Under the pieces are notes generated by a model. That model was not told the DNA's origin. It did no database searches and was given only the letters and a program-made list of their open reading frames with translations. Positions 31,771 through 49,548 of a DNA stretch of 64,000 nucleotides are shown here, piece after piece. The first letter of the stretch is position 1, and every line of letters begins with the position of its first letter. A program made the translations under genes and the position numbers. The stretch is from Rhodobacter sp. (lineage in GTDB: Bacteria; Pseudomonadota; Alphaproteobacteria; Rhodobacterales; Rhodobacteraceae), in assembly GCA_027484145.1 (NCBI GenBank), contig JAIXUH010000002.1, positions 372,001 to 436,000 on the forward strand, read 5' to 3'.

Positions 31771-31777
31771 TACGACC
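31771..31777 (+). promoter_or_regulatory. TACGACC motif upstream of Sel1-repeat gene
   Basis: CTACGACCA, 60 bases upstream of the gene at 31837, copies the motif at 34135, 34159, 34754 and 46692 in the alcohol-oxidation promoters. A single copy without a dyad partner; chance is possible. Confidence 0.3.
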
Positions 31778-31836
31778 ATCGCAGGGGTGATCGGCGGCCC
31801 GCTTTGCTTTAGCCTGATGGCAGCGGAGGACCGAAC

Positions 31837-32364
31837 ATGCGCCTGACCCTTGCCATCTGCCTCTTGGCCTTTCCGGCCTGTGCCGAAACGGACCTCGGCA
31901 CGCTGAACCCCGACGAGATGAGCCTTGGTCGCGTGCTGGACGGAATCGCTCAAGGCGAGACCAGCATGACCAATTGCGCGGCGGGCTACATGATTACCAA
32001 GTCAGGCCGCCACGATCAGGCGCGCGCGGTGTTCGGGGCCTGTGCCGACGCAGGCTATACAGGTGCCATGACATGGATGAGCCAGCTGGATGACAACGGT
32101 CTGGGGGCATCGGAGGACCCTGATGCCGCCGCCATGTGGGACCGCCGTGCGGCTGAGGCGGGCGATCCGGTGGGTATGTTCAACCACGGGCTTGACCTGA
32201 TGCGCGGGCGGGGGGTCGTGCAGGATGTAGACGCGGGCAAGCGCATGGTGGACCGGGCGGCCAGCCTTGGCCTGCCGGTCGCCAAACGCCTGCAAGGCGC
32301 GGGCTATGATCTGGATGAAGTGACGCCCGACGCTGACAACTGGAAATACGCGCCGATGTTCTGA
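31837..32364 (+). CDS. Periplasmic Sel1-repeat protein
   Basis: 175 residues with a signal peptide (MRLTLAICLLAFPACA). Two to three Sel1-like TPR units are visible (AGYTGAMTWMSQLDDNGLGA, DPVGMFNHGLDLMRGRGVVQ, GLPVAKRLQGAGYDL), which make a small helical protein-binding surface. There are two Cys in the mature N-terminal part. It lies at the left edge of the alcohol-oxidation locus, convergent with the orphan ABC genes 39 bases away, and has a TACGACC motif upstream; a link to that locus is inference. Confidence 0.8.
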   Translation: MRLTLAICLLAFPACAETDLGTLNPDEMSLGRVLDGIAQGETSMTNCAAGYMITKSGRHDQARAVFGACADAGYTGAMTWMSQLDDNGLGASEDPDAAAMWDRRAAEAGDPVGMFNHGLDLMRGRGVVQDVDAGKRMVDRAASLGLPVAKRLQGAGYDLDEVTPDADNWKYAPMF

Positions 32365-32381
32365 CGTGGGTGGGCCGGGCG

Positions 32382-32425
32382 CAAAATCCTTCAAAGGATT
32401 TTGTCAATTTCCTCGCAGGAAATTG
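32382..32425. repeat. Tandem pair of AT-rich hairpins straddling a stop codon
   Basis: Two adjacent palindromes: CAAAATCCTT-CA-AAGGATTTTG (32382-32403) and CAATTTCCT-CGC-AGGAAATTG (32405-32425). The second lies inside the last seven codons of the ABC ATPase gene and encodes its TNFLRGN tail; the first lies just after its stop. They could terminate both convergent genes, but two AT-rich perfect palindromes side by side in GC-rich DNA look like a mobile or REP-like unit. No second copy was seen in the window. Confidence 0.6.
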
Positions 32426-33054
32426 GTGCTCTGCACCTCTGGCGGCTGCTGGGCGGTGACGGTAGCAGGGGTTCCGGCCAAGCGCAGGGTCCGTGTCGCC
32501 AGTCGTCTGGCTTCCGCCTCGGAATGTGTGACAAGAACCGTTGCCACGGGCCGCGCCGCGCGCAGGGTTTCGAACAGTGTCATCATCTCATCCGCCAGTT
32601 GCGGGTCGAGTGAGACGAAGGGTTCATCCATCAAGAGCACATCAGGACTCGCGCCAAAAGCGCGGGCCAGTGACAGCCGCCGCTGCTGGCCGCCAGACAG
32701 AGCGCCCGGATAGCGGTCTTCCAGATCTGCCAGCCCAACCTCGGCCAAAAGGTCGCGGGCCACGTCGGGCGTGCAGCCCAGCGTCAGTTCAAGGTTTTCG
32801 GCGGCTGTCCGCCATGGCATGAGCACCGGGTCTTGGAACACCATCGCAATGCGACCGGGCAACGTCAGCGTGCCGCGCCAAGTGGCATGCAATCCGGCGA
32901 TGATCCGCAGCAGCGTGGTCTTGCCCACACCTGAGGGGCCGGTGACGGCAACGGTTTCTCCGGGCAAGACATCGAGGGCAAGGCCCCCGAGGATATGGGC
33001 CTTGCCATGGCTTGCCGAGATCAACTGCAAGGACAGCGCGGGGGATGCGGCCAT
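32404..33054 (-). CDS. ABC transporter ATPase (nitrate/sulfonate/taurine type), permease partner missing
   Basis: 216 residues. Walker A GPSGVGKTT (about 38-46), Q-loop FQDPVLMPW, signature LSGGQQRRLSLARA and Walker B VLLMDEPFVSLD are all present, so it should be an active ATPase of the SsuB/TauB type. It is some 30 residues shorter at the C-terminus than usual family members, and its final residues are encoded by a palindrome. Its start overlaps the binding-protein stop (TGATG). No membrane component lies on either side; the next gene is the Sel1 protein. Confidence 0.85.
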   Translation of the reverse strand: MAASPALSLQLISASHGKAHILGGLALDVLPGETVAVTGPSGVGKTTLLRIIAGLHATWRGTLTLPGRIAMVFQDPVLMPWRTAAENLELTLGCTPDVARDLLAEVGLADLEDRYPGALSGGQQRRLSLARAFGASPDVLLMDEPFVSLDPQLADEMMTLFETLRAARPVATVLVTHSEAEARRLATRTLRLAGTPATVTAQQPPEVQSTNFLRGN

Positions 33055-34034
33055 CAGCTGCCCGGCTGCACGAAGACGCCCGCAGGCAGCGTCGTGGTCT
33101 TGCCCATCAACTCTTCGCCGCCCAACTGCGCCATAATTTCCAGCATTTTCGCGGCGGCGGCTTCGTCGACCGGGCCTGCCGCCGGAATGCCGGCACGGAA
33201 GCCCGCCTTTAGCGCGGCAAACTGGGCGTCATCCTTGGCGTTCATGATCGGGCGCAGTGCGTCCCATGCAGCATCATCCGTGGCCAGAATGTCCTTCGCC
33301 GCGCGGCTGGCCGCTGCAAGGCCTGCGACCAATTCCGGCTTTTCGCGCAAAAGATCGCCGGTGACGACATATCCCAGCAGTGGCGTATCGGGCGACAGGC
33401 CCAAGGCGGCGGCCGCCTCGCTGACCGTGATCAGGGGGCGCATTCCGGCGGCTTCGGCCTTGGCGTTGAAGTGCCAGAAGTTGATTGCCCCATCCGTTTC
33501 GCCCGACAATGCCGTTTCAAAGATCAGTGGCGGCGCGCCGAACACCTGTTCGGTTTCACCCGCCAAATCCATGCCCTGCGATTGCGCAAAGGCGCGCAGG
33601 ATCAGCCAGCTTTTGTCGACCGGGCCACCTGCGATGCCGATTTTCTTGCCTGCAAGGTCAGACAGGCTCTTGGCCGGGCTATCGGCCTTGACCATCAGGG
33701 CGCCAACAGCGCGGGAATAGGGGATGAACACATAGTCCGCCCCTTCGGCACGCTGCCGCGCCACCCAAAGCCAGTCAGACACGATCACATCCGCCTCGCC
33801 GCCCTGAAAGGCCACCTGCGCGGCCGGGCCAGCGGCCACATCCTGCACGACCATCGTAAAGCCATTGGCCTTGTCCAGCCCGTTTGCGGCGATCGTGGTC
33901 AGTTCCCAGTTTACCGTGCCCGAAACCTGCGTTGCGATGCGAAGGGTGGCATCCTGCGCAAAGGCCACGCTGCCATAGGCCAGCACACCTGCACATAGGA
34001 ATCCGCGCCCAAGGGCTCTGCGTGTCAGCGTCAT
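33054..34034 (-). CDS. Periplasmic substrate-binding protein, NitT/TauT type
   Basis: 326 residues from ATG 34034. The signal peptide contains twin Arg (TLTRRALGRGFLCAGVLAYGSVAFA). A two-lobed binding fold with TQVSGTVNWELTTIAANGL near 32-50 and LAGKKIGIAGGPVDKSW resembles the SsuA/TauA-like proteins found next to quinoprotein alcohol dehydrogenases. The substrate is not known; lanthanide chelate, cofactor or alcohol-derived acids are all guesses. It is divergent from the cytochrome c gene across a TACGACC-rich promoter region. Confidence 0.8.
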   Translation of the reverse strand: MTLTRRALGRGFLCAGVLAYGSVAFAQDATLRIATQVSGTVNWELTTIAANGLDKANGFTMVVQDVAAGPAAQVAFQGGEADVIVSDWLWVARQRAEGADYVFIPYSRAVGALMVKADSPAKSLSDLAGKKIGIAGGPVDKSWLILRAFAQSQGMDLAGETEQVFGAPPLIFETALSGETDGAINFWHFNAKAEAAGMRPLITVSEAAAALGLSPDTPLLGYVVTGDLLREKPELVAGLAAASRAAKDILATDDAAWDALRPIMNAKDDAQFAALKAGFRAGIPAAGPVDEAAAAKMLEIMAQLGGEELMGKTTTLPAGVFVQPGS

Positions 34035-34134
34035 GATGATCTCCTCCCGATCCTTGATGGGCACCCTATCAGCCCGTGGCAAGTGCGAAATGCGACCTTC
34101 GCAGGGGGAGCGCAGGGCAAGCACCGTGACGTTC

Positions 34135-34165
34135 TACGACCTTGGTCGGGGCAGGGCCTACGACC
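34135..34165. promoter_or_regulatory. Double TACGACC site with CGACC-TT-GGTCG dyad
   Basis: TACGACC occurs at 34135-34141 and again at 34159-34165, 24 bases apart. The first extends into a perfect 12-base palindrome CGACCTTGGTCG (34137-34148). A weaker TGCGACC lies at 34091. The sites sit between the divergent ABC and cytochrome genes. This is the densest copy of the candidate operator of the locus. Confidence 0.55.
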
Positions 34166-34254
34166 ACGCCGCCCGGTTCATTTGACCTGCATCAAGTTGC
34201 TGGGCGCGGTGCGGGTTCATCAAGACAGGACGAGGGGTCAAAAAGGAGAGACAG

Positions 34255-34641
34255 ATGAAACGGATGCTTACGGCGCTGCTGCTGGTGACAGCGGCCCCTG
34301 CCTTGGCTGACGAGCCAAAGGTTTTTGACCAGATCAAGGTCAATGCAGGGGCAGCCCTGTTTGATGCCGAATGTCGGCGCTGCCATGCAACGGATGCAGA
34401 CCGCGCCTCTTACGGTCCGCCGCTGGAAGGTGTGATCGGGCGGGCGGCAGGCTCGGTGGCGGGCTATCCCTATTCGCCTGCGCTGCAATCTGCGGCCTTT
34501 GTCTGGACGCGGCCCGCCCTCAAGGCATGGATCGAGGACAATCAGGGCTTTGTTCCGGGCACCAAGATGCGCCATGTCGGCATCACGGACCCCGTCGTGC
34601 AAGACTTCATTCTGGCCTATCTCGCCTCGGTTCCGCAGTGA
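34255..34641 (+). CDS. Periplasmic class I cytochrome c
   Basis: 128 residues with signal peptide ([18 protein letters not shown]), one haem site Cys40-Arg-Arg-Cys43-His44 and a likely Met105 axial ligand in PGTKM. The segment [11 protein letters not shown] and the ending [12 protein letters not shown] are usual for small class I c-type cytochromes. It lies 236 bases upstream of the quinoprotein dehydrogenase on the same strand, so it is a good candidate to carry electrons from the PQQ enzyme to the oxidase. Confidence 0.9.
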
Positions 34642-34748
34642 GGCGGGGCTCTGCGCCTTTGTCTGAGGGACGGGTCTGGTCGATGCTCCGACAGTGTCGC
34701 CAGCCCTTGGGCCTGTCCGTCATGGGCGGGCCTGCCGCCCTGTCCAAT

Positions 34749-34760
34749 GGTCTTACGACC
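34749..34760. promoter_or_regulatory. GGTC-TTAC-GACC dyad upstream of the PQQ dehydrogenase
   Basis: GGTCTTACGACC contains TACGACC (34754-34760) and an inverted GGTC. It lies 118-129 bases upstream of the dehydrogenase ATG, in the 236-base gap after the cytochrome gene. It has the same half-site as 34135 and 46692 but reversed dyad order and a 4-base spacer. Confidence 0.45.
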
Positions 34761-34877
34761 AATGTGCAATACCCCGAAACAGCGGCGACGCGGATGATGC
34801 CGCCAGACCGGGGCTCTTCGCAAGAGGGGGCAAAGTGGCCGCCTGTCATCACGGAACAACCCGAGGGAGGAGACCGG

Positions 34878-36647
34878 ATGAACCGCTTTATCATCGCCGT
34901 CACTGCTGCACTGATTGCCGGAACACCGGCATTTTCGGCTGGCGTGACCGAAGAAGACATCGCCAATGACGCCACGACGGTGGGCGACGTTGTGACCAAT
35001 GGCATGGGCCGCACCTTGCAGCGGTTCAGCCCGCTGGCCACGCTGAACAAGGACAACGTCAAGAACCTTGTCCCGGCATGGGCCTTCAGCCTTGGCGGCG
35101 AAAAGCAGCGCGGGCAGGAAACCCAGCCGCTGGTGCGCGATGGCGTGATGTATATCACCGGCTCTTACAGCCGCCTTTATGCCATCGACATCAAGACCGG
35201 CAAAGAGCTGTGGCAGTATGATGCCCGCTTGCCCGAAGGCATTCTGCCCTGCTGCGACGTGGTCAACCGTGGGGCGGCACTTTATGGCGACAACATCTAT
35301 TTCGGCACGCTGGATGCCCGGATGGTGGCGCTGAATGCGGCCACGGGTGATGTGGTCTGGAACAAGAAAATCGCGGAATACAAGGAAGGCTATTCCTACA
35401 CCGCAGCGCCGCTGATCGTGAACGGGCTGGTGATCACCGGCAATTCGGGCGGTGAGTTCGGCATTGTGGGCGAAGTGCAGGCGCGTGACGCGCTGACGGG
35501 TGAGACTGTCTGGACCCGCCCGGTGATCGAAGGCCACATGGGCACGCTGAACGGCAAGGAAAGCACCATGACCGGGACGCTGAACGCGACTTGGCCGGGA
35601 GATCTGTGGAAGACCGGGGGCGGGGCCACATGGCTTGGCGGCTCGTATGACATTGAAACCGATACGCTGGTGTTTGGCGCAGGCAACCCGGCACCTTGGA
35701 ACAGCCACCTGCGCAACGCAGGCGCGCCGACCGAAGGCAATGTGGGTGACAACCTTTATGCGGCCGGCCGCATCGGGCTTGACCCCAAGACGGGCGAGAT
35801 CAAGTGGCACTTCCAAAGCACGCCGCGCGAAGGCTGGGACTATGACGGCGTGAACGAAGTGGTGGCCTTTGCCGACAAGGATGGCGCCAAGAAATTCGCC
35901 ACGGCCGACCGGAACGGCTTTTTCTATGTTCTGAACCGCGAGGATGGCAAGTTCCAGAACGCATGGCCTTTTGTGAAAGACATCACCTGGGCCAGCGGGA
36001 TCGATGAGAATGGCCGCCCGATCTATGTCGAGGAAAACCGCCCCGGCGATCCGGCCAAGGCCGCTGACGGTGCCAAGGGCGATGTGGTGTTTTCCTCGCC
36101 CTCCTTCCTCGGTGGCAAGAACTGGATGCCGATGGCCTATAGCCAGAACACGGGCCTGTTCTATGTGCCCTCCAACGAATGGGGCATGGATATCTGGAAC
36201 GAGCCGATCACTTACAAGAAAGGTGCCGCCTACCTTGGGTCGGGCTTTACCATCAAGCCGAACTACGAAGACCACATCGGCAGCCTGAAGGCGATTGATC
36301 CGGCCACGGGCGAATGGAAGTGGGAATACAAGAACGAGGCCCCGCTTTGGGGTGGCGTGATGACCACGGCGGGTGGCCTTGTGTTCTTCGGCACGCCCGA
36401 GGGTGAGTTCCTTGCGCTGGATGATACCACCGGCGAAACCCTGTGGTCGTTCCAGACCGGGTCGGGCATCGTGGGCCAGCCCGTCACATGGGAGCAGGAC
36501 GGCGAGCAGTACGTGACCGTCGTGTCGGGCTGGGGTGGCGCTGTTCCGCTGTGGGGCGGCGAAGTGGCCAAAAAGGTCAACTACCTCAATCAGGGTGGCA
36601 TGGTCTGGACGTTCCGCCTGCCGAAACAACTTGCCATGGCGGACTGA
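34878..36647 (+). CDS. PQQ-dependent alcohol dehydrogenase, predicted lanthanide type (ExaA/PedH-like)
   Basis: 589 residues from ATG 34878 (GGGAGGAG upstream; the open frame extends further but without homology). A signal peptide is followed by an eight-bladed propeller. Landmarks are [18 protein letters not shown], the stretch [19 protein letters not shown] characteristic of quinoprotein ethanol dehydrogenases, and the vicinal disulfide Cys125-Cys126. Metal ligands are Glu193 (GGEFG), Asn270 (GAGNPAPW) and catalytic Asp321. Asp323 in WDYD is the extra acidic ligand that marks lanthanide-dependent members (XoxF, ExaF, PedH); calcium enzymes have a non-acidic residue there. It oxidises alcohols in the periplasm and passes electrons to cytochrome c. 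No pqq genes are in the window. Confidence 0.93.
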
Positions 36648-36675
36648 TCCCCTCTGATCAGGCTGGTGCGGCAGG

Positions 36676-36701
36676 GCGCGCCTCGGGAAACCGGGGCGCG
36701 C
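36676..36701 (+). terminator. Terminator of the PQQ dehydrogenase gene
   Basis: An 11-bp stem GCGCGCCTCGG / CCGGGGCGCGC (one G-U pair) with GAAA tetraloop, 28 bases after the stop, followed by TTTGCCTTTGGG. Confidence 0.8.
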
Positions 36702-36716
36702 TTTGCCTTTGGGTGT

Positions 36717-37778
36717 TTATGTGGAGGGATCGGTGTACGTATGCTGTTTGCCTTGCGGGTCGGTCACAACCCATGCTGCGCCATCCGCCTGCACATAGCC
36801 CGGACCAATCGGCACCTTGCCGTGACCACCCGGAATATCAAGGACATAGGTCGGCAGGCAGGTTCCCGATAGCCGTCCGCGCAGGGCCGCCATCAGCGCT
36901 TGCCCTTGCGCGATCGTGGTGCGGAAATGCCCGGCCCCGCGCGCCATGTCGCAATGATGCAGGTAATAGGGTTTGACGCGCAGCCGGATCAGGGCACGGA
37001 ACAGATCCTCCAGCGCGGCCACGTTGTCATTCACCCCGCGCAACAGCACCGATTGCGACAAAAGCGGGATGCCGGCCCTGACCAGCCGTTGCAACGCCGC
37101 TGCGGCATTGGGGGTCAGTTCATCGGCGTGGTTTGTGTGCACCACGACCCATACTGCCAGCCGCGAGTCGAGCGCTGCCAGCAAAGCATCGTTGATCCGC
37201 TGGGGGGCCACCACCGGCACGCGGGTGTGCAGGCGCACCACCTGCACATGGGCAATCGCCTCCAGCCGCCGCAACAGATCAGCGATTCGGCGCGGCGACA
37301 ACACCAGCGGATCGCCCCCTGTCAGAATAACCTCCCAGATCGCGGGGGTGGCGGCGATATGATTCAGCGCCCGGTCAAGCGCGTCGGGCGGCAGATGCCC
37401 CGTGTCGCCCACGGTTTCGCGGCGAAAGCAAAAGCGACAATAGACCTCGCATGTCTTGGTCACATGCAGGATGGCACGGTCCGGGTAGCGGTGCGTCAGA
37501 CCGGGCACCGGGGCGTGCACGTCATCGCCAATGGGGTCGGCCATATCTTCGGGCCGCACCAGCAACTCATCCGCCGATGGCACAAACTGCCGTGCGACAC
37601 CTGCAGATGTGGCGGCCTCCAGCATCTCTGGCGTGATCCGTAGCCGGAAATCCTGCGCCACGCGCTCCAGTACTTGGGCCTGAGCGGGCAGGGCAAATCC
37701 ATGCTGCACAAGATCACGCACAGAGACGATGGCACGCCCGGAGGTGGCCTCGTCCGCCAGATCGTTGGAAAATCCCAT
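36717..37778 (-). CDS. Lysine 2,3-aminomutase family radical SAM enzyme (KamA/EpmB)
   Basis: 353 residues from ATG 37778. The radical-SAM cluster motif CEVYCRFC (Cys110, Cys114, Cys117) and the PLP-lysine motif PGGHGK (Lys321) identify a lysine 2,3-aminomutase. Its length fits either the KamA-like proteins or EpmB, which makes (R)-beta-lysine for elongation factor P modification. The PLP motif is PGGHGK rather than PGGGGK. efp and epmA are not adjacent. Its start overlaps the stop of the lytic transglycosylase gene (TGATG), so the two are co-transcribed. Confidence 0.88.
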   Translation of the reverse strand: MGFSNDLADEATSGRAIVSVRDLVQHGFALPAQAQVLERVAQDFRLRITPEMLEAATSAGVARQFVPSADELLVRPEDMADPIGDDVHAPVPGLTHRYPDRAILHVTKTCEVYCRFCFRRETVGDTGHLPPDALDRALNHIAATPAIWEVILTGGDPLVLSPRRIADLLRRLEAIAHVQVVRLHTRVPVVAPQRINDALLAALDSRLAVWVVVHTNHADELTPNAAAALQRLVRAGIPLLSQSVLLRGVNDNVAALEDLFRALIRLRVKPYYLHHCDMARGAGHFRTTIAQGQALMAALRGRLSGTCLPTYVLDIPGGHGKVPIGPGYVQADGAAWVVTDPQGKQHTYTDPST

Positions 37779-38248
37779 CAGCTGCGCAGGCCGGTTTCTT
37801 CCAGAAGGCCAAGGCGCTTGGCTTCGTAATAATAGCCGCTGGCATACCACTTCACCGCGCGCTCTTCTGACCCGTTCGATACCAGCCACGCGCCACGCAG
37901 GTATTTGCCCGCGTATTTCAGGTTGGTTTCGGCATCCAGCAATTCAGACGCTGGCCCGCGATGCCCCATGGTGCGGGCGGTTTGCGGCAAGATCTGCATC
38001 AACCCCCAGTAAGGTCCGTTGCGCGCGCCGGGGTTATAGTCACTTTCGCGCTGCACCACACGGTGTATCAGGCTGGCGGGAATGTCATATTCGGTGGCAT
38101 AGCGGTTGATCAGCGCGCGCAGTTCCGGTGTTTCCCCCGGATGCAGGGCGCCCCGATGCGCGGTATCGTCAGTGCTGCGCGGCCGCCCGCAGGCCGACAA
38201 GGCGGCAGCAAGGGCAAGCGACAGGGCGGCGCGGCGGCTCAGCAGCAT
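37778..38248 (-). CDS. Lytic transglycosylase (SLT) lipoprotein
   Basis: 156 residues from ATG 38248. The N-terminal lipobox LSAC marks a lipoprotein after a signal segment with RR. One SLT domain has catalytic Glu in VVQRESDYNP and the conserved GLMQILPQTARTMG and NLKYAGKYL. It cleaves the murein glycan strand to 1,6-anhydromuramyl ends. Small size suggests a specialised role. It is upstream of kamA in a two-gene unit; the link between the two is unclear. Confidence 0.88.
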   Translation of the reverse strand: MLLSRRAALSLALAAALSACGRPRSTDDTAHRGALHPGETPELRALINRYATEYDIPASLIHRVVQRESDYNPGARNGPYWGLMQILPQTARTMGHRGPASELLDAETNLKYAGKYLRGAWLVSNGSEERAVKWYASGYYYEAKRLGLLEETGLRS

Positions 38249-38413
38249 AGGGTCCTCCTTGGTTTTCCGCGCTATAGCGCAAGGTCCGGGCGTGCTCCAC
38301 CCCGCGTGGCGGTCGCTTGCGGAAAACCGCAAAGCCTATAGGACTTAAGCCGTGCTTTGCCACAACCTCGATGCTTGCTAGCATGGCGGCAGAGTAAGGA
38401 TGAAAGGCATATC

Positions 38414-39109
38414 ATGACCGCGCATCCGGGGTTCGGGGAACGCCAATTGAATTCAGCCTTGATCGTGGACGATCATCCGCTGTTCTGTGACGCCTTGTCG
38501 ATGACACTGAAGGCCGTTGCCGGAATCCTGCGCATCGAAACCGCAGACCGGCTGGAAAGCGCCATCGAGCGGCTGGACCGTGCGCCATTTCCCGATGTGG
38601 TGGTGCTGGACCTGAACCTGCCCGATGTCGATGGGCTTGATGGGTTGATCCGCCTGAAATCAGTCGTGGGGGCAGTGCCGGTGGTGGTGGTGTCGTCGCT
38701 GGCCGATAACCGGGTCATCGGCGCGGCCTTGCGGGCTGGTGCGGCGGGCTTTGTGCCCAAGCATAGCCATCGCGATGTGTTCCGCGCCGCGTTTGAAACC
38801 ATCCGGCAGGGCGGGGCCTATGTGCCCGACGGCTTTACCCCACAGAATGACCCGAACACCCCGGCTAGCCAACGCGAGGCCGCGATTGCACGGTTGTCGC
38901 TGCTGACCCGCCAACAGGCCAAGATCCTGCAACTGATCTGCGAGGGGATGCTGAACAAGCAAATCGCCTATGATCTGTCGATTGCGGAAACAACGGTAAA
39001 GGCGCATGTGACGGCAATCATGCGCAAACTTGGGGTGCAAAGCCGGACACAAGCCGTTCTGATCTCGCGGGGGGCGAGTTTCGAAAGCCTGATGCCGGAA
39101 AACGACTAA
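38414..39109 (+). CDS. NarL/LuxR-type response regulator
   Basis: 231 residues from ATG 38414. The receiver domain (about 12-135) has acidic pocket Asp19-Asp20, phosphoacceptor Asp66 (VVVLDLNLPDVDG) and Lys116. The LuxR helix-turn-helix is at 162-218 (LLTRQQAKILQLICEGMLN and AETTVKAHVTAIMRKLGV). The family includes AgmR/ErbR, EraR and ExaE, which control PQQ alcohol oxidation in pseudomonads. It is followed by the FIST sensor and hybrid kinase on the same strand, its likely partners. I infer that it binds the TACGACC sites of the locus. Confidence 0.9.
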   Translation: MTAHPGFGERQLNSALIVDDHPLFCDALSMTLKAVAGILRIETADRLESAIERLDRAPFPDVVVLDLNLPDVDGLDGLIRLKSVVGAVPVVVVSSLADNRVIGAALRAGAAGFVPKHSHRDVFRAAFETIRQGGAYVPDGFTPQNDPNTPASQREAAIARLSLLTRQQAKILQLICEGMLNKQIAYDLSIAETTVKAHVTAIMRKLGVQSRTQAVLISRGASFESLMPEND

Positions 39110-39171: not shown

Positions 39172-40392
39172 TTGGACGAGGCGTGGGATCAAGGCCCCGC
39201 GACGCCATCCCGCGCGCCATCAGGTGCTGCGGGCCTTTCGGCGTTTCCCTTGGTTTGCACCGCATCGGTTTCAGCCCGCGCGCCCGACGCGGCCCAACAG
39301 TTGCGCGCGGCGCTTGGACCCGGCCCCTTTGCCCAAGTGATCGTGTTCATCTCGCCCGAGGCAGACCTGACCGCCCTGAACCAACAATTGCAACAAGCCT
39401 TCGCGCAGGATCTGGTGATTGGCTGCACCACGGCGGGCGAGATTTCCGCCCAAGGCTATGCCGAAGGCGAAATTGTCGCCGTTGCTCTACCCTGCGCGCA
39501 TTTCGCAACCGATTGCCTGCTGATTCCGGACCTGACGGCGATCGACCCGCAGGCCCTGATCGGGCAACTGATCCGGCGGCGGGCAGCATTGACAGCCGCA
39601 CACGAAGGGTGGGATCACGAATTTGCCTTTCTGCTGGTGGATGGCCTGTCCACGCGCGAAGATGAGTTGACCTCGGCGCTTGCGTCGGGACTGGGGCCCT
39701 TGCCACTCTTTGGCGGGTCCGCGGGCGATGGCACCAACTTTGCTGCCACCTTCATTCTCTATCAGGGCCAAGTCCTTGGAAACGCGGCCGTCCTGATGCT
39801 GACGCGGACAGATTGCCGCGTCAGGGTGTTCAACCTTGACCATCTGGTGCCCACCGACCGCCGCATGGTGGTGACCGAGGCTGATCCAAGACGACGCATC
39901 GTCCGCCAGATCAATGCCGAGCCCGCCGCACGTGAATATGCGCGCCTGTTGGGCAAGGATCCGGGCCAGTTGACCACCTTTACGTTTGCCGCGCACCCCG
40001 TGGTGGTGCGGATTGGCGGCAAGCACCATGTCCGCGCAATTCAGCGGGTGGATGAAAACGGCGATCTGATCTTTTTCTCGGCCATAGACGAAGGGCTGGT
40101 GCTGACCCTTGCCGAGCCGCAGGACATGGTCGCGCATCTGGATCACGAATTGTCGCGCCTGTCCGAAGGGGGGGCACCTGCGGCCATTCTGGCCTGCGAC
40201 TGCATCTTGCGGCGGATGGAGGCGCTGGAGAAACAAAAATACGGCGCTTTGTCGAAAGTGTTGCAAGATCATAATGTTGTCGGGTTTTCTACATATGGCG
40301 AGCAGTGGAATTCCATGCATGTCAACCAGACGATGACAGGGGTCGCCATCTATCCGCCCCCGGAACCACAGGCGGGGCCTGCGGATGATTGA
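39172..40392 (+). CDS. nosP: FIST-domain sensor protein, NosP-like
   Basis: 406 residues from TTG 39172, with GGGGGGGAG six bases before it; no ATG fits better. FIST_N (about 50-240: GCTTAGEISAQGY, PLFGGSAGDGTNF) is followed by FIST_C (about 250-390: ILACDCILRRMEALE, VVGFSTYGEQWNSMHVNQTM). This matches the NosP family, haem proteins that bind nitric oxide and regulate a co-encoded histidine kinase. The next gene is such a kinase, overlapping by eight bases. In Pseudomonas aeruginosa NosP-NahK (PA1975-PA1976) also sits beside the ethanol-oxidation genes, which supports the call. Whether this protein binds haem is untested. Confidence 0.85.
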   Translation: MDEAWDQGPATPSRAPSGAAGLSAFPLVCTASVSARAPDAAQQLRAALGPGPFAQVIVFISPEADLTALNQQLQQAFAQDLVIGCTTAGEISAQGYAEGEIVAVALPCAHFATDCLLIPDLTAIDPQALIGQLIRRRAALTAAHEGWDHEFAFLLVDGLSTREDELTSALASGLGPLPLFGGSAGDGTNFAATFILYQGQVLGNAAVLMLTRTDCRVRVFNLDHLVPTDRRMVVTEADPRRRIVRQINAEPAAREYARLLGKDPGQLTTFTFAAHPVVVRIGGKHHVRAIQRVDENGDLIFFSAIDEGLVLTLAEPQDMVAHLDHELSRLSEGGAPAAILACDCILRRMEALEKQKYGALSKVLQDHNVVGFSTYGEQWNSMHVNQTMTGVAIYPPPEPQAGPADD

Positions 40393-42586
40393 CACGCTGA
40401 TCAACCCCGCCGATCCGCCGCAGCGGCAGATGGAAAAGCTGCTGACGATTGCGCAGGTCCTGATGCGCCGCGTGGAACAGGCCACCGATGACGGCGGTGC
40501 CGCCTATGCCCAGTTTCAGCGCGCCGCCATGCTGGAGGATCAGGTCCGCGACCGCACGCGCGATCTGGAACGCGCGCTTGACCTTTTGAACGAATCGAAT
40601 GCCCGACTGGGCGAGGCGAACCGCAGCGCCGAGGCCGCGCGCCAGAACCTTGCCAACGCGATCGAGACGATTCAGGAAGGCTTTGCCCTGTTTGATGCCG
40701 CCGATGTGCTGGTGCTGTGCAACTCTCGCTTTGGCACGCATATGGTTGATATCCATGAGGATCTGAAGCCAGGCCTGACGTTTGATGCCTATGTCGACCG
40801 GGTGAGTCGTTCCCGCTATCTGGCCTTGCCCGACAATGAACGCCCCGAAGACTGGGCCGTGCGGCGCAAGCGGCGGCATCAGGATCGCCACGTCATCTTT
40901 AACGTGCGCATGATCTGGGACCGCTGGATGCAGGTCAGCGAACACCGCACGCTGGATGGTGGCACGGTGATCTTGCAGACGGATGTCACCGATATCATCC
41001 GCGCCGAACGGCATGAGCGTGGCAAGATGCTGGACGATCAGGCCCGCGTCATCCGCGCCACGCTGGACCACATCAATCAGGGCGTGTCGATCTTTGACCT
41101 GCAGGCGCGTCTGGTGGGTTGGAACGAACGGCTGGGCCAGTTGCTGGCGATTCCGATGGCGCGGTTCCGTATCGGGGCCTCGTTTGACTATCTCCTGCAG
41201 CGGTTCCGCGCCGAGATCGGGTTTTCCGATGGCATGACCGACGACATGTTGGAGGAATGGGTGCATGGCGCGCGCGGGCGCGCCCCCTTGTCGTTCGAGG
41301 TGCGTCGCGGCGATGATCTGATCTTGGCGGTCTTTGCGCAGGAAATGCCCGACGGTGGCTTTGTGATGAGCTTTACCGACGTTACCGCAGAGCGCGCCGC
41401 GATCGAGGCGCTGAGTCGCGCCAATGAAACGCTTGAGGCCCGCGTGATGGAGCGCACGCTGGAACTGGAAGATGCGCTTGGCAATGCCGAACGCGCCAAT
41501 GCCAGCCGATCCCGTTTTGTGGCGGCGGCCAGCCATGACCTGCTGCAACCGTTGTCTGCGGCCAAACTGTTCATCTCCTCGATCGGGGATGAAGCGATTG
41601 CCCCGCAGGCGCGTGAGGCGCTGGAAAAGGCCCAGAATGCGCTGGTGTCGGTCGAAGGCATTCTGGATGCGCTGCTGGATATCTCAAAGCTAGAATCGGG
41701 CCGCGCCGCCGTATCGGTGGGGCATGTGTCGCTGGGCCGCTTGCTGTCGCAACTGCGCGAGGAATTCGGCGCCATCGCGGCGGCCAAGGGGCTGCGCCTG
41801 ACCATCCGCCCGGTGGATGCAGTAGTGGTATCTGACCCGGCCTATCTTCGCCGTATCCTGCAAAATCTGATCGGCAATGCCATCCGTTATACCATGCGCG
41901 GCCGAGTGCTGGTGGGCGCGCGCAAACGGGGCGGTATGGTCCGGCTGGAGGTTTGGGATACCGGCCCCGGCATTCCCGAAGAGGAACAGGACAATATCTT
42001 CAAGGAGTTCCACCGTCTGAACGCCCGCGCCTCGGCCAGCGAAGGCATGGGGCTTGGCCTTGCCATCGTTGAACGCGCCTGCGCGCTGCTGGGGCATCCC
42101 TTGGGCCTGGCCTCGACCGTTGGAAAGGGCACCTGCTTTATGCTGCAGGTGCCGCTGGCCGACGTCGGCGAAAGCCATTTCGCCCGTCCGGCCCCACATG
42201 TGCCCGAACCCCGCGTGAACCTGCACGACAAGATCGGCTTTCTGGTCGAGAATGACGAAGATTTGCGCCGGGCGATGTCGCTGTTGCTGGAAAAATGGGG
42301 CATCAGCGTTCTGGATGCCAGCAACGGCGAAGAAGCTCTTGCACTGATTGAAGAGTTGGGGATCTTGCCCGACTTTTTCCTTGTCGATCATCAGTTGGGC
42401 GACGGGATCACGGGCGTTGATTTCATTCTGGCGGTGCGCGCGCGCTATGGCGACGTGCCCTCACGCCTTGTCACGGCCAACCGCAGCGCCGAGGTGCGCA
42501 ACATGGCCCGCGCCGCCGGGGTAGAGATGCTGATGAAACCCATCGACGCGCGCGCTCTTGAGGCGTTTCTGAGCGCCCTGTCCTAA
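40385..42586 (+). CDS. Hybrid sensor histidine kinase, NahK/ErcS'-like
   Basis: 733 residues. No membrane segments, so cytoplasmic. An N-terminal coiled coil (about 45-90) precedes two PAS-like domains (about 92-205 and 224-335, each with NAIETIQEGFALFD or ATLDHINQGVSIFD), then coiled coil 335-370. HisKA has His384 (ASHDLLQPL), HATPase has Asn494, DTGPGI (525-530) and GMGLGLA (554-560), and a C-terminal receiver (616-731) has Asp668 and Lys718. PAS helices of the IxxGFALFD/INQGVSIFD type fit the NahK/ErcS' group. It overlaps the FIST gene by eight bases; that protein is its likely input partner and the NarL-type regulator a likely output. Confidence 0.92.
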   Translation: MIDTLINPADPPQRQMEKLLTIAQVLMRRVEQATDDGGAAYAQFQRAAMLEDQVRDRTRDLERALDLLNESNARLGEANRSAEAARQNLANAIETIQEGFALFDAADVLVLCNSRFGTHMVDIHEDLKPGLTFDAYVDRVSRSRYLALPDNERPEDWAVRRKRRHQDRHVIFNVRMIWDRWMQVSEHRTLDGGTVILQTDVTDIIRAERHERGKMLDDQARVIRATLDHINQGVSIFDLQARLVGWNERLGQLLAIPMARFRIGASFDYLLQRFRAEIGFSDGMTDDMLEEWVHGARGRAPLSFEVRRGDDLILAVFAQEMPDGGFVMSFTDVTAERAAIEALSRANETLEARVMERTLELEDALGNAERANASRSRFVAAASHDLLQPLSAAKLFISSIGDEAIAPQAREALEKAQNALVSVEGILDALLDISKLESGRAAVSVGHVSLGRLLSQLREEFGAIAAAKGLRLTIRPVDAVVVSDPAYLRRILQNLIGNAIRYTMRGRVLVGARKRGGMVRLEVWDTGPGIPEEEQDNIFKEFHRLNARASASEGMGLGLAIVERACALLGHPLGLASTVGKGTCFMLQVPLADVGESHFARPAPHVPEPRVNLHDKIGFLVENDEDLRRAMSLLLEKWGISVLDASNGEEALALIEELGILPDFFLVDHQLGDGITGVDFILAVRARYGDVPSRLVTANRSAEVRNMARAAGVEMLMKPIDARALEAFLSALS

Positions 42587-43375
42587 TCAGGCCTTGGCCT
42601 TCATCTGGCCGCGCACCGGATCATACCCCCACAAGGCCGCCGCGCCAAAGATGACCGTCGCCAGCAAGGTCCAGCCAAGGGCGGGCAGATTGGCCTGCGC
42701 ATAAAGGGCAAAACGGATCATCTCGACCGCTTGGGTAAAGGGGTTCAGCGCGCAGGCAGTTGCCAAAGCGGGCGAGGCTTCGGCCATTTTCCAAAGCGGG
42801 TATAGGGCCGAAGACAGGAAGAACATCGGAAAGATCACAAAGTTCATGACACCGGCAAAGTTCTCAAGCTGCTGGATCAGCGATGACAACAACAGCCCAA
42901 GAGCCCCCAGCATCAGCCCTGACAGCAGCAACGCCGGGACAATCGTCAGAAAGCCCAAGGGCGGCACGCGCACCCCCCACAGGGCCGCGATCCCCAGAAA
43001 GGCCATGCATTGCAGCAATGACACCACGGTGCCCGCCAGCAACTTGCTGAACAGCAGCCACCAGCGTGGCAAGGGAGAGGTCAGCAACAGCCGCATCGAC
43101 CCCATCTCGCGGTCGTAGACCAGTGAAAGAGACGACTGCATGCCGTTGAAAAGGCATATCATTCCCAAAAGTCCAGGCACGATGTAAGTCTCATAGGTGA
43201 TATAGGTCTGATAGGGCGGCGTGATCGAAAGTCCAAGCGCCGCCCGAAACCCGGCGGCAAAGATGAAAAGCCATACCAAAGGCCGCACCATTGCGGCAAC
43301 CAGCCGCCCCTTTTGGCCAACAAAGCGCAAGGCCTCACGGTGCAGAATGGCGCGCAGGGCGATCAGCGCGGTCAT
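42587..43375 (-). CDS. ABC-2 type permease of PQQ-alcohol system (TIGR03861-like)
   Basis: 262 residues with six hydrophobic segments and the ABC-2 features YIVPGLLGMICLFNGMQSS, the coupling region YDREMGSMRLLLTSPLPR and FPMFFLSSALYPLWKM. It resembles the alcohol ABC transporter permeases of PQQ-linked clusters. ABC-2 permeases usually export, and the substrate is unknown. It ends directly against the hybrid kinase gene (convergent, no gap) and overlaps the ATPase gene by four bases. Confidence 0.88.
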   Translation of the reverse strand: MTALIALRAILHREALRFVGQKGRLVAAMVRPLVWLFIFAAGFRAALGLSITPPYQTYITYETYIVPGLLGMICLFNGMQSSLSLVYDREMGSMRLLLTSPLPRWWLLFSKLLAGTVVSLLQCMAFLGIAALWGVRVPPLGFLTIVPALLLSGLMLGALGLLLSSLIQQLENFAGVMNFVIFPMFFLSSALYPLWKMAEASPALATACALNPFTQAVEMIRFALYAQANLPALGWTLLATVIFGAAALWGYDPVRGQMKAKA

Positions 43376-44082
43376 GCGGGGGCACCTGTCAGCGCCAGAA
43401 ACGTCTCGGTCAGCGGGCGACCCGCGGCGATGGCGCGCGCAGTGTCATCGGCCAGAATCCGCCCCTTGTGCAGGATCAGCAGACCGTCATCCGGGCGCAC
43501 CTCATCGGTCAGATGGGTGGCCCACAGAACCGTCAGCCCCTCGGCCGCAAGGTCATGCACATGATCCACGATGGCGGCCCGCGACGCCGCGTCCAGCCCC
43601 ACGGTTGGTTCATCCAGCAACAGAACGGCGGGCCTGTGAATCAAGGCGCGCGCTATCTCCATCCGGCGGCGATGACCGCCGTTCAGCGCGCGCGCAGGTT
43701 CATTTGCACGCTCTGCCATCCCAAGGCGTTCCAGCGTGGCCTGGATGCGCAGGTCTGCCTCGCGCCCTGCGATGCCATGCAGGGCGGCGAAATACACAAG
43801 ATTGCGCCGTACGGTCAGGTCAAGGTCGATGGTGGGCTGCTGAAACACCACACCCATCCGGGCAAGGGCCGCGCGTGGCGCACGTGCCAGATCATGCCCG
43901 GCCATCACGATGATTCCCGAAGGCGCGGTGAACAGCCGGGTCAACAGACCAAACAGCGTGGATTTGCCCGCTCCGTTCGGCCCCAGCAGCGCCGTAAACC
44001 CCGGCGCAACCGAAAAGCTGACCTGATCCAGCGCCAGTTTTGCGCCATAGCGGAACGACAGGCCTGTGACCGCGATTGTCAC
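43372..44082 (-). CDS. ABC transporter ATPase of PQQ-alcohol system (TIGR03864-like)
   Basis: 236 residues. Walker A GPNGAGKST (about 35-43), Q-loop VFQQPTIDLDLTV, Walker B VLLLDEPTVGLD. The signature is LNGGHRRRMEIA rather than LSGGQ, a variant I associate with this quinoprotein-linked ATPase subgroup. It partners the ABC-2 permease downstream with a four-base overlap, and overlaps the 142-residue secreted protein upstream by four bases, so the set is translationally coupled. Confidence 0.9.
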   Translation of the reverse strand: MTIAVTGLSFRYGAKLALDQVSFSVAPGFTALLGPNGAGKSTLFGLLTRLFTAPSGIIVMAGHDLARAPRAALARMGVVFQQPTIDLDLTVRRNLVYFAALHGIAGREADLRIQATLERLGMAERANEPARALNGGHRRRMEIARALIHRPAVLLLDEPTVGLDAASRAAIVDHVHDLAAEGLTVLWATHLTDEVRPDDGLLILHKGRILADDTARAIAAGRPLTETFLALTGAPA

Positions 44083-44507
44083 TGGATCGTTATCTCAAGA
44101 CGCTGGCTGTTGCCGGTCGATCCGGGCACCTTCAGGGCATAGGTGCCGGGTTTGATGGCGATAAAGCCGATTTCCATGGTGCCAGCCTCATCAAATTCGA
44201 TCGAGTCGAGGGCTAAGGGGCGGATTTCCAAGCCTTCGACCACGATCTCGTCGATCCAAATCGCCCGAAAGAACTCTGCCCCTGCCAGACCCAGTTCCTG
44301 TGAGCCGTCGCCCTGAATTTCAACGTCGTAATAGCGGCCCGATTGCAGAACCCAAGGGGCAGACGTCAGCGGCGCGCCCGCCGACAGAATGATGGGTTCA
44401 AGGTCCGCCTTGTTGCTGCCCGACAGCAGGCCCGCGAGGCCCATTTCCTCTTGCGCCCAGAGTGTTGCAGGAAGAAGTGACAGCGCCGTAGCAAGAAGGA
44501 TACGCAT
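44079..44507 (-). CDS. Secreted 142-residue protein of the alcohol-oxidation cluster, unknown function
   Basis: Signal peptide (MRILLATALSLLPATLWA) then about 124 residues rich in beta-strand patterns: GAPLTSAPWVLQSGRYYDVE, EFFRAIWIDEIVVEGLEIRP, and a closing GTYALKVPG. The pattern suggests a cupredoxin-like or immunoglobulin-like periplasmic fold, but there are no Cys or His copper ligands. It is coupled to the ABC ATPase gene by overlap and lies three bases after the beta-propeller gene. I do not recognise a named family. Plausible role: periplasmic adaptor of the ABC system (inference). Confidence 0.7.
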   Translation of the reverse strand: MRILLATALSLLPATLWAQEEMGLAGLLSGSNKADLEPIILSAGAPLTSAPWVLQSGRYYDVEIQGDGSQELGLAGAEFFRAIWIDEIVVEGLEIRPLALDSIEFDEAGTMEIGFIAIKPGTYALKVPGSTGNSQRLEITIQ

Positions 44508-44510
44508 GTT

Positions 44511-45473
44511 TCAGCCTTTTGTTGGCCGCATCGCGGCACCCCATGGAAAACGCCCGACCTTGATGGATTTGATCGCCTGACGTGATGCGACATCAATCAC
44601 CGTCACATCGCCCGATACACCGTTGGTTGTGAACAGTTTTGTATGGTCGGGGGAAAAGGCCATGTGCCAGACGCGGCGGCCGACCAGAATATAGCTCTCA
44701 ACCTGCAGGGTCTTTGCATTGACCACGGCCACATGGTTCGACGGCCCAAGGGCGACGAAGGCGGTGGCTTCATCCGGGGTGAATTCGAACCCGACCGGTT
44801 GGATCAGATCCGCGTTCACGCCATTGATTTCAAAACGGATCTTGCCCTTTTCCGTCTGGTCGGCGGTGTTGAAGACCGTCACCGTACCGCCGATTTCAGA
44901 ACTGACCCACAATTCCTGCCCCCCTGCCGCGAATTCGGCGTGTCTGGGGCGGCTGTCCACCAGGGTGTTGGCAAACAGCTTTTGGGTTGCCGTATCGATC
45001 CAATGCGCCATGTTCGTCGTTTCAGACGTGGTAATGGCCACCTTGCCATCGGGGGACACGGCCATGCCTTCGGGTTCGATGCCCACATTGATTTGAGCCA
45101 CGACCGTGCGGGTTTGCGTGTCCACAACTGTGGTTACCGCATCATCTTCATTCGCGATGTAAAGGTGGCGGTCATCGGGGTGCAGCACGAATTGCTCGGG
45201 GTCTTCGCCCGACGGCAGGTCGTAAAGAACCTCGCCCGTTGTCGGGTCCATCACCTGAACGGTGTCGCTATCGGACGCGCAGATGTAGACGCGGCTGAAA
45301 TCTTGCGAAAACGTAATCCCGCGCGGGCGCTCGCCGGTCGGGATGGTGCGGGTAACTTCCAGCGTGTCGACATCTATCACGCTGATCGTGTCATCCTTTT
45401 CATTCGTGACCCAGATTTCGCCCGCGCTGAGCGGCAGGGCCACGGTGGTCAGCAACAGTGCAAGTTTCAGCAT
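44511..45473 (-). CDS. Periplasmic YVTN beta-propeller protein (PQQ-associated, TIGR03866-like)
   Basis: 320 residues from ATG 45473, where a signal peptide MLKLALLLTTVALPLSAG begins; the longer frame has none. About seven repeated blades of the type IWVTNEKDDTISVIDVDTLEV, with GERPRGITFSQDFSRVYIC, GIEPEGMAVSPDGKVAITTS and similar. These propellers accompany PQQ alcohol dehydrogenases, with unknown function. It is the second gene of the minus-strand unit running from 46644 to 42587. Confidence 0.9.
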   Translation of the reverse strand: MLKLALLLTTVALPLSAGEIWVTNEKDDTISVIDVDTLEVTRTIPTGERPRGITFSQDFSRVYICASDSDTVQVMDPTTGEVLYDLPSGEDPEQFVLHPDDRHLYIANEDDAVTTVVDTQTRTVVAQINVGIEPEGMAVSPDGKVAITTSETTNMAHWIDTATQKLFANTLVDSRPRHAEFAAGGQELWVSSEIGGTVTVFNTADQTEKGKIRFEINGVNADLIQPVGFEFTPDEATAFVALGPSNHVAVVNAKTLQVESYILVGRRVWHMAFSPDHTKLFTTNGVSGDVTVIDVASRQAIKSIKVGRFPWGAAMRPTKG

Positions 45474-45474
45474 T

Positions 45475-46644
45475 TCATCCCCCAAAGGCTGTGCAGCCGC
45501 TTTCCGGCTGGTCAAGGCCAAGGCTGTCCGTCTCGTTGCGCTGATGCAGGAACCCGTCGACCGGGGCCAAAGCCACAAGGGCGCGCGCGTTGACCACGGC
45601 AATGGGCTGGCGCAACTGTCCGTTCCATGTGCGAAAGGTCAGTGCCCGGCCCTTGAAGCCATCCAACTGGAACGCATCGCCCAGCATGAAGGCGCGCAGC
45701 GTTGCCGGATCGGCGCTGTTGGTCCGCGTAACCGCCTCTCCCACCGCGCGAATGGCCAGCCATGCGGCATAGTCGCGGCTTTTCATGGGGCGGGCGTGAT
45801 CGTCCTCAAAGCGGTTTTGCAACTGCACTGCACCCCATGCCTCGATCACAGAGGCCCAGCCTTCGGCGTGCAACCCGTCGCTGCCCGCAACCGGGCGCGG
45901 CAGCCAGGTGTTGTGTTCGACATAGCGGCCGAAATCATCAGTCGGATCGGCCAGCAGCAGCACGTCGTGATCCGGAAAATCCTGCGTGAACCGGGGAATT
46001 TCCTGCATGGTCGATTCGCGAAGATCGGTGTCAAAGGTCCAGGCCTTTTCTGCCGCGATCGTCATGCCGAACTTGGTGGCAGAGGACCGCAGCGCATCGG
46101 CAAAGGCTGCATCGGCGGGGTGCGGGCCGATGATCATCACCAGATCCTGCCATTGCTTGGCCACCAGAACCTGCATCAGCGCATCGGTGCGGGCCGCATC
46201 TTCGACGACCGTGTGCAACAGGTTCTTCCGGCAATCGCCTGATCGCAGGTTCGCATCCCCCGATGAGACATTGAACAAAAGCGCATGTTCCGCAGCCGGC
46301 AGATCGGCCACCGACAACATCTGTGCGGCAGGGGCGTCGAGCAAAAGGATCTGCGACCGGGTCAGCGCCTCACGGGCCGCGGCCAGCACATCACCCCCCG
46401 GCGCAACCGACATTACCTCCAGCGCATAGGCATGCCCCAGAAAGCTGCCTGTCGTCAGGTTGTCCTTCAGCGCCACGGCGGCACCGGCAAGGCCAAGGTC
46501 CTGCGGCACGGGGTCAAGGTTCGACAGGACCGGTGGCTGTTCCACCTCGGCCCGCAGATAGATGATCGGAACATCGGTCTGCGCGACCGCCATGGATGGC
46601 AGCAGCATCGCGGCGCAGGCCATGGTGCGAATGGCGTGGTTCAT
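45475..46644 (-). CDS. Branched-chain-type periplasmic binding protein (PQQ-associated, TIGR03863-like)
   Basis: 389 residues from ATG 46644 with signal peptide (MNHAIRTMACAAMLLPSMAVA). A family-1 periplasmic binding fold is suggested by IIYLRAEVEQPP, LLLDAPAAQML, the linker LVMIIGPHPADAAFADALR and VLLLADPTDDFG. It is the first gene of the five-gene minus-strand unit (binding protein, propeller, unknown, ATPase, ABC-2 permease). A binding protein of an import type combined with an exporter-type permease is unusual. Ligand unknown. Confidence 0.85.
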   Translation of the reverse strand: MNHAIRTMACAAMLLPSMAVAQTDVPIIYLRAEVEQPPVLSNLDPVPQDLGLAGAAVALKDNLTTGSFLGHAYALEVMSVAPGGDVLAAAREALTRSQILLLDAPAAQMLSVADLPAAEHALLFNVSSGDANLRSGDCRKNLLHTVVEDAARTDALMQVLVAKQWQDLVMIIGPHPADAAFADALRSSATKFGMTIAAEKAWTFDTDLRESTMQEIPRFTQDFPDHDVLLLADPTDDFGRYVEHNTWLPRPVAGSDGLHAEGWASVIEAWGAVQLQNRFEDDHARPMKSRDYAAWLAIRAVGEAVTRTNSADPATLRAFMLGDAFQLDGFKGRALTFRTWNGQLRQPIAVVNARALVALAPVDGFLHQRNETDSLGLDQPESGCTAFGG

Positions 46645-46691
46645 CCGGTCCTCCCTGCGGGCAACATGGTCGCGATCGAGGTGGCCGGGAA

Positions 46692-46704
46692 TACGACCAT
46701 GGTC
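46692..46704. promoter_or_regulatory. TACGACC-AT-GGTC dyad between divergent units
   Basis: TACGACCATGGTC contains the perfect palindrome GACCATGGTC (46695-46704). A second half-site in reverse (GGTCGAA) is at 46734-46740. It lies between the divergent binding-protein operon (start 46644) and the cytochrome c gene (start 46800), like the site at 34135. Confidence 0.55.
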
Positions 46705-46799
46705 TGACATGGTTTTGCCGCAGGGGACACCAAGGTCGAATGGCGCAAGAGGGCAGGGCGGCGCTATCCCGAAAAGGCGACAGGATGGAGGAGCGCCGC

Positions 46800-47480: not shown

Positions 47481-47484
47481 CGCC

Positions 47485-49538: not shown

Positions 49539-49548
49539 GGGGGAAAAG

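Follow-up and report, generated by a model that had tools for sequence, protein, structure and literature searches.

The question raised by this locus is whether a short sequence repeated in its promoters is an operator and, if so, which protein reads it. The locus lies in a 64,000-nucleotide stretch of a Rhodobacter sp. genome (contig JAIXUH010000002.1, positions 372,001 to 436,000; hereafter, the window) and contains genes for a pyrroloquinoline quinone (PQQ)-dependent alcohol dehydrogenase, cytochromes, and ATP-binding cassette (ABC) proteins, together with a NarL/LuxR-type response regulator encoded at 38414 to 39109. A first-pass annotation had noted the heptamer TACGACC in promoters of this locus and had proposed it as the operator of that regulator. 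Our analysis indicates that the motif copies are almost certainly real cis-regulatory sites and, from comparative genomics, that they are very probably bound by the 38414-39109 regulator. The regulator probably activates the genes concerned, a conclusion that is less certain than the operator itself.

TACGACC copies in the locus occupy promoters

TACGACC is present in eight copies in the window, compared with a mean of 1.9 in 100 dinucleotide shuffles, none of which reached eight. Five of the eight copies lie in promoters and start exactly where the first-pass annotation had placed them (31771, 34135, 34159, 34754, and 46692), while the other three are in coding sequence (28382 on the plus strand and 43111 and 45218 on the minus strand). 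The annotation's estimate that about eight copies would arise by chance was too high, judging from both the shuffles and the rate in the window's own genome (187 copies in 4.97 Mb on 39 contigs [G000], or ~2.4 per 64 kb).

A comparison of coding and intergenic copies, which the annotation had put forward as a check, favored its proposal. Coding status was set with a codon-usage gene caller that we built and checked by eye against the window genes. Of 88 copies of TACGACCW in the genome, the 82 outside the window comprised 72 coding and 10 intergenic sites, in stretches that are ~15% noncoding, whereas the 6 in the window comprised 5 intergenic sites and 1 coding site (45218; P = 4e-4, Fisher test). 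Since the intergenic share outside the locus is no higher than the noncoding share of those stretches, the heptamer behaves there as expected by chance. The presence of 6 of the 88 copies within 15 kb has a binomial probability of 3e-7, uncorrected for the post hoc choice of locus. A genome-wide regulon was rejected for this genome: among the 10 intergenic copies outside the window, just 2 (L162 and L191) reach 12 bits with the matrix described below, 3 lie in stretches without any called gene, and L137 is the sole other intergenic match.

A ~16-bp site is recovered without the window

Expectation-maximization on 57 upstream regions of relatives, with the window excluded and no seed taken from the finding, returned the consensus TACGACCATnGTnnnA (18.9 bits). 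The full site spans ~16 bp, and TACGACC covers just its better-conserved half, which is why the annotation overlooked the diverged sites at 34091, 34740, 46725, and 48405. Of 127,970 places in the window, the six that score best with this matrix are 34754, 46692, 34135, 34740 (minus strand), 31771, and 46725 (minus strand); all six are intergenic, and all lie inside the alcohol oxidation locus. The predicted elements are as follows.

31771 to 31786, plus strand: operator site before the Sel1-repeat gene, 12.8 bits (matrix without the window)
34091 to 34106, plus strand: diverged operator site (TGCGACC), 7.2 bits, 57 to 72 bp before the binding-protein gene, which starts at 34034
34135 to 34150, plus strand: operator site between divergent units, with the inverted repeat CGACC-TT-GGTCG, 16.9 bits
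34159 to 34165, plus strand: isolated half-site TACGACC before the cytochrome c gene, with the rest missing (full-length score, −2.2 bits)
34740 to 34755, minus strand: operator site back to back with the 34754 site, 16.8 bits
34754 to 34769, plus strand: main operator site, in the PQQ dehydrogenase promoter, 24.5 bits, the highest in the window
34793 to 34798, plus strand: predicted −10 element (GATGAT), offset by 39 bp from position 34754
46692 to 46707, plus strand: operator site between the divergent PQQ-binding-protein and PedF genes, with a palindromic core, 21.6 bits
46725 to 46740, minus strand: second operator site between these two genes, 33 bp from the 46692 site, 11.7 bits
48405 to 48420, plus strand: degenerate operator at the orthologous place in the coxG promoter (CAAGACTTTAGTTTCA), 6.5 bits, at −68 from coxG

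The annotation had described two perfect palindromes. The one at 46695 (GACCATGGTC) is indeed perfect, whereas the one at 34137 (CGACCTTGGTCG) has perfect 5-bp arms in inverted orientation but falls short of a perfect palindrome because its central TT is not self-complementary. The reversed half-sites described at 34749 (GGTC-N4-GACC) are real and represent the junction of the back-to-back sites at 34740 to 34755 (minus strand) and 34754 to 34769 (plus strand); the same arrangement precedes the PQQ dehydrogenase gene in 8/20 relatives.

The sites are conserved in orthologous promoters

Upstream stretches were compared after orthologs had been mapped in 100 loci. Near-duplicate loci were dropped (L001 to L010); L074, L075, L086, L090, L095, and L099 were also left out of motif training and the −10 analysis, and L011 was left out of training. 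Sites of at least 12 bits were found before the gene for the PQQ dehydrogenase in 20/20 relatives' loci, PedF/PQQ-binding protein in 17/17, cytochrome c in 11/11, the NMT1-like protein in 7/8, and Sel1 in 6/11; most of the loci behind these counts also trained the matrix. This check on orthologous promoters, for which the annotation had called, favored its proposal. The finer architecture recurs as well. A GGTCG half-site is located at −48 to −57 of the NMT1-like gene in 6/8 relatives, and in 15/17 relatives the PedF/PQQ-binding-protein region contains a pair of sites that each score 8 bits or more and are separated by 20 bp or more.

We also made a wider draw of 149 family genomes, about one per genus, chosen independently of the regulator; 30 of them encode a PQQ dehydrogenase with 78% identity or more. 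Among 26 further PQQ dehydrogenase upstream regions, likewise drawn regardless of the regulator, 24 carried a site of at least 12 bits, as did none of four upstream regions of distant PQQ dehydrogenase homologs.

The coxG promoter is a probable target outside the training set

In 63 loci that have the regulator but not the PQQ genes, the site recurs ~4.1 to 4.3 kb past the regulator start. It lies there in the promoter of coxG, which opens a coxGSL-like molybdenum hydroxylase gene set, and coxG promoters were never part of motif training. Of the coxG promoters in 56 listed regulator-bearing loci, 52 contained, within 200 bp, a site scoring 12 bits or more, and in 48/56 such a site was positioned at −64 to −74.

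coxG is common, being present in 124/149 family genomes, and genomes with and without the regulator were compared at its promoter. A coxG site of at least 10 bits was detected in 16/20 regulator-positive genomes (at least 12 bits in 13/20) and in 0/20 regulator-negative genomes, in which the best score was 7.2 bits (P = 1.5e-7). The regulator-negative genomes were the 20 with the best coxG matches, in listed order. The regulator-positive genomes were 20 taken in list order, leaving out G143, G065, and G025, which were scored separately (21.6, 22.0, and 17.7 bits, respectively), and excluding G016, G127, G158, and G086, which encode a distant regulator only.

These data bear on whether the sequences are chance 7-mers noticed post hoc, an explanation we consider hardly credible. 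It draws on two null results. The bare palindrome GACC-N2-GGTC occurs at three places in the window (34138, 46695, and 23302), a count that 9/100 shuffles reach, and we rejected it as evidence because it is not enriched; likewise, TNCGACCWWNGT is not enriched genome-wide (30 copies versus 36 for the reversed control). Chance, however, does not readily account for the placement of 4 of those 30 copies in the alcohol oxidation locus, all intergenic, for the clustering of TACGACCW, or for conservation across genera, and it is contradicted by the de novo motif, the coxG promoters, and the comparison of regulator-positive and -negative genomes.

Several other matches were recorded in regulator loci. 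A 22.5-bit site lies 8 kb past the regulator in L228 (positions 10342 to 10357), from a genome that lacks this PQQ dehydrogenase, a 20.4-bit site lies ~6 kb past the regulator start in L229 (9363 to 9378), and in L079, ~9.0 kb past the regulator, sites of 20.6 and 17.0 bits are spaced 14 bp apart. A lone strong site (22.2 bits) was seen near a ped-type cluster in L291 (18865 to 18880), in a genome of the family whose members encode ErdR proteins over the model cut-off. A recurring match ~1,770 bp past the regulator start falls within the FIST gene and, being coding, was excluded as an operator.

The sites hold a fixed distance to the −10 element

The distance from the first base of the site to that of a TAnnnT −10 element is 39 bp in 13/17 aligned PQQ dehydrogenase promoters and 39 to 40 bp in 43/45 coxG promoters. 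With the −10 element taken as −12 to −7 relative to a predicted start, the site would lie at about −51 to −36. The start predicted for the PQQ dehydrogenase gene is at about 34805, 51 bp past the first base of its site. This geometry, with a block just upstream of the −35 position and a fixed distance to the −10 element, is also what would be seen if the block were a basal promoter element (an extended −35) and not an operator. We regard that as very improbable, since the block is missing from the coxG promoters of the regulator-negative genomes (0/20), is found in both orientations and as doubled sites, and contains a heptamer that is mostly coding genome-wide.

The motif and the regulator occur together

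A homolog of the 38414-39109 regulator (E value up to 1e-40) was found in all 30 genomes with the PQQ dehydrogenase, the window's own included, versus 26/119 of the others (P = 3e-16, Fisher test over the 149 family genomes). In 7 of the 30 (G143, G164, G138, G163, G169, G092, and G137), the regulator and dehydrogenase genes are on separate contigs or several hundred kilobases apart; only in G143 and G164, where both genes are on one contig, is the distance proven. By hand tally, a site scoring 12 bits or more is retained in all seven. In G143, a distance of 0.9 Mb separates the PQQ cluster (L230) from the locus with the regulator, FIST, kinase, and coxGSL genes (L231), and sites are present at both: before the genes for the PQQ dehydrogenase, PedF/PQQ-binding protein, NMT1-like protein/cytochrome c, coxG, and the regulator. 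Near Sel1 in the stretch examined, no site reached 12 bits. Together with promoter conservation, this co-occurrence, which extends to the unlinked genomes, lends support to the annotation's proposal that the 38414-39109 regulator is the binding protein.

The motif might instead be the operator of another LuxR-type regulator that is encoded elsewhere and distributed over the same genomes. NarL-type regulators are numerous (34 matches to the regulator at E values up to 0.001 in the window's genome), and close paralogs may have similar sites. We nevertheless consider this explanation unlikely, because the next best matches in that genome are just 36 to 38% identical and score ~100 bits, versus 159 bits, on the ErdR model, and because the coxG site separates genomes with the regulator from those without it.

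The regulator resembles ErdR and AgmR

The NCBIfam model nearest to the regulator is ErdR (NF041830), on which its 159 bits fall under the cut-off of 390; proteins in 11/299 phylum genomes exceed that cut-off. In a phylogenetic tree, the window regulator falls in a 27-row Rhodobacteraceae set (99/95) outside the ErdR clade. Five ErdR rows (of the 11 over the cut-off) form a separate 100/100 set, and eight AgmR-type rows, a label that we assigned from gene neighborhood, form their own 100/100 clade, with the window regulator outside it. The tree, which has long branches and carries a warning of joins among them, gives no firm branching order for the AgmR-type set relative to the window's set. 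Gene content points toward AgmR: the regulator gene sits beside nosP-nahK-type genes in a ped/exa-type cluster, and in 7/8 AgmR-type loci FIST and kinase homologs are both within the stretch examined. Its partners also score under the relevant models, with 399.7 bits for the FIST protein (NosP cut-off, 450) and, for the kinase, 400.5 bits on NF041831 (cut-off, 1500) and 358.8 bits on NF041832 (cut-off, 400). Filing these proteins as ErdR, AgmR, NosP, or NahK is not justified; on the tree and profile scores, the regulator appears to be a third lineage beside ErdR and AgmR.

AgmR/ErbR/PedR1, reported to activate the ped/exa cluster of Pseudomonas, shares with the window regulator its nosP-like, nahK/pedS1-like, PQQ dehydrogenase, PedF, and PedABC neighbors (PMC12997753). 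It is only ~40 to 42% identical to the window protein, and the Rhodobacteraceae motif reaches 11 bits at just two places in the eight AgmR-type loci (none in six of them), implying that the operator is not generally shared by such loci.

The closest likeness in DNA is to the ACTU motif of CrbR/ErdR, described for Pseudomonas fluorescens acs, actP, and other genes (PMC5715377). ACTU is an imperfect inverted repeat with the same spacing and a near-identical core (acs, TACTACCATCGTCGAAT), it is located just upstream of the −35 element, and it is read by a LuxR-type response regulator. At acs, it lies at −52 to −36 and is needed for activation by CrbR (PMC5715377), a position and consensus that the inverted repeat here matches when the start site is predicted as above. 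When the ACTU sites of four P. fluorescens genes, taken from the paper's text as the experimental genes, were scored in register with the Rhodobacteraceae matrix softened with 10% background, 0, 1, 8, and 0 of 4,000 shuffles did as well, as did 0/3,000 shuffled sets. Seven further ACTU sites, chosen by eye, were scored too but are given no weight here. A strict ACTU-like expression was not useful for AgmR- or ErdR-type loci; it found nothing in 16 ErdR-type or close stretches or in the 8 AgmR-type loci, and its single match across all 36 loci was in a Rhodobacteraceae locus. The targets differ, with acetate use and the SLC5-linked kinase CrbS described for CrbR/ErdR (PMC5715377), in contrast to PQQ alcohol oxidation and a molybdenum hydroxylase here. 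These comparisons suggest that the regulator would act like an ErdR-type regulator on ACTU-like sites.

Two other systems are more distant. RpuR/MctR of rhizobia is likewise a LuxR-type response regulator for which a promoter motif has been mapped; at mctP, this motif is described as an imperfect direct repeat, unlike the inverted repeat here (PMC9100948). FlhRS of Paracoccus denitrificans, compared by description only, is a two-component system controlling one-carbon oxidation in a related alphaproteobacterium, whereas its targets are given as mxa, mau, and glutathione-dependent formaldehyde genes (PMC8879981). A search by title and start of abstract, with most subscription journals beyond its reach, returned no paper describing this operator in Rhodobacteraceae.

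Observations that temper the interpretation

Several observations weigh against operation of these sites by the regulator, or against activation. Two of the 26 PQQ dehydrogenase upstream regions score under 12 bits (8.5 and 11.8), and several of the test genomes also gave training loci. In 4 of the 20 regulator-positive genomes, no coxG site reaches 10 bits, and the one in the window is itself degenerate (6.5 bits); since coxG lies closely behind the PedF and binding-protein genes, it may be transcribed there from the PedF promoter. In loci without PQQ genes, 91 sites were counted against 10 to 15 in Markov controls, but the reversed-sequence control gave 47, so it is position rather than count that supports the motif in these loci. 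The co-occurrence partly reflects shared ancestry; although about one genome per genus was drawn, the statistics ignore the tree. The regulator's own promoter in the window has at best a 4.6-bit match (38339 to 38354, ~75 bp upstream), and just 30/90 relatives have, within 200 bp upstream of the regulator gene, a site scoring 12 bits or more, a fraction that suggests autoregulation may occur in some relatives. The classical ACTU target acs has no site in the window's genome, where the highest score over the 4.9-kb stretch L192 was 3.4 bits, and was rejected as a target there. Finally, in Pseudomonas aeruginosa, where ErdR bound 13/15 promoters in vitro, most of the tested genes rose on erdR deletion (PMC9927353); by that precedent, repression is possible. 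Activation is favored because the site adjoins the position of RNA polymerase, as ACTU does at acs.

A proposed regulon for alcohol oxidation

We propose that phosphorylated dimers of the regulator would bind the imperfect inverted repeat described above, whose ideal form would be TACGACC-WW-GGTCGTA, and that the bound site, abutting the −35 region, would govern initiation. The Sel1, NMT1-like/ABC, cytochrome c, PQQ dehydrogenase, PedABC-type, and PedF promoters would thus belong to one regulon, joined in relatives, and perhaps weakly in the window, by coxGSL. The regulator is most likely an activator, and the NosP-like FIST protein and NahK-like hybrid kinase would most likely supply its phosphate upon a signal. 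A review of the ped cluster describes as unsettled where alcohol control enters and whether kinases signal directly to AgmR (PMC12997753).

More tentatively, and with less than even confidence, we suggest that this is a Rhodobacteraceae-wide third switch of the ErdR/AgmR type whose older core target is coxGSL, that the PQQ cluster joined by gaining the operator, and that the NosP/NahK-like proteins (nitric oxide or redox sensing) act as its gate. One regulator would then read both the alcohol step and the aldehyde-oxidizing step that follows it, from modules that would have fused into one locus in the window while remaining apart in G143. The regulator, its NosP/NahK-like neighbors, and the predicted operator, found side by side in environmental bacteria that are harmless, together offer a kinase-regulator-promoter chain that is open to direct study. 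The operator also provides a sequence-only means of finding further regulon members and hints at a role for the widespread coxGSL-like hydroxylases in the regulator-bearing genomes of the family.

Genes of the locus

The genes served by these promoters, and those of the regulator and its neighbors, are as follows.

31837 to 32364, plus strand: Sel1-repeat-like protein gene (Pfam Sel1, 24.1 bits, under the 30.7 cut-off)
32404 to 34034, minus strand: ABC ATPase (32404 to 33054) and NMT1/THI5-like binding protein (33054 to 34034), by profile matches
34255 to 34641, plus strand: cytochrome c gene (Pfam Cytochrom_C, over cut-off)
34878 to 36647, plus strand: PQQ-dependent alcohol dehydrogenase gene (TIGR03075, 762.6 bits; cut-off, 480)
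38414 to 39109, plus strand: NarL/LuxR-type response regulator, the proposed binder (Pfam Response_reg and GerE, over cut-off)
39172 to 40392, plus strand: FIST-domain protein, NosP-like (FIST and FIST_C over cut-off; NosP model under cut-off)
40385 to 42586, plus strand: hybrid histidine kinase, NahK/ErcS'-like (under the models' cut-offs)
42587 to 46644, minus strand: PQQ-associated ABC unit (PedC permease, ATPase, small protein, beta-propeller, and binding protein)
46785 to 48402, plus strand: cytochrome c-550 PedF (TIGR04494, 189.3 bits; cut-off, 122) and SBP_bac_3 binding-protein (PF00497) genes
48473 to 51927, plus strand: coxG, coxS, and coxL-like molybdenum hydroxylase genes (Pfam COXG, Fer2/Fer2_2, MoCoBD_1/2, and Ald_Xan_dh_C, over cut-off)

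The locus is a ped-type cluster, in that its PQQ alcohol dehydrogenase, PedF, and PQQ-associated ABC proteins exceed the model cut-offs. Within the ABC unit, TIGR03861, TIGR03864, TIGR03866, and TIGR03863 were all matched over cut-off, and no model matched the small protein (44082 to 44507). The ABC ATPase and NMT1-like binding protein at 32404 to 34034 have no adjoining permease gene among the genes mapped.

In a search for PqqE only, among the pqq genes, no protein of the window's genome, which is rated 100% complete, exceeded the cut-off (best, 42.6 bits; cut-off, 381), so the PQQ enzyme of the window may rely on externally supplied PQQ. The control genomes were likewise without a PqqE protein over the cut-off. 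The closest PDB matches to the PQQ dehydrogenase (34878 to 36647) are 6zcv and 6zcw, which we take to be PedH. An extra aspartate marks lanthanide-using enzymes such as PedH, and the window enzyme reads WDYDG where 6zcv and 6zcw read WDFDG and 1flg reads WDFSG.

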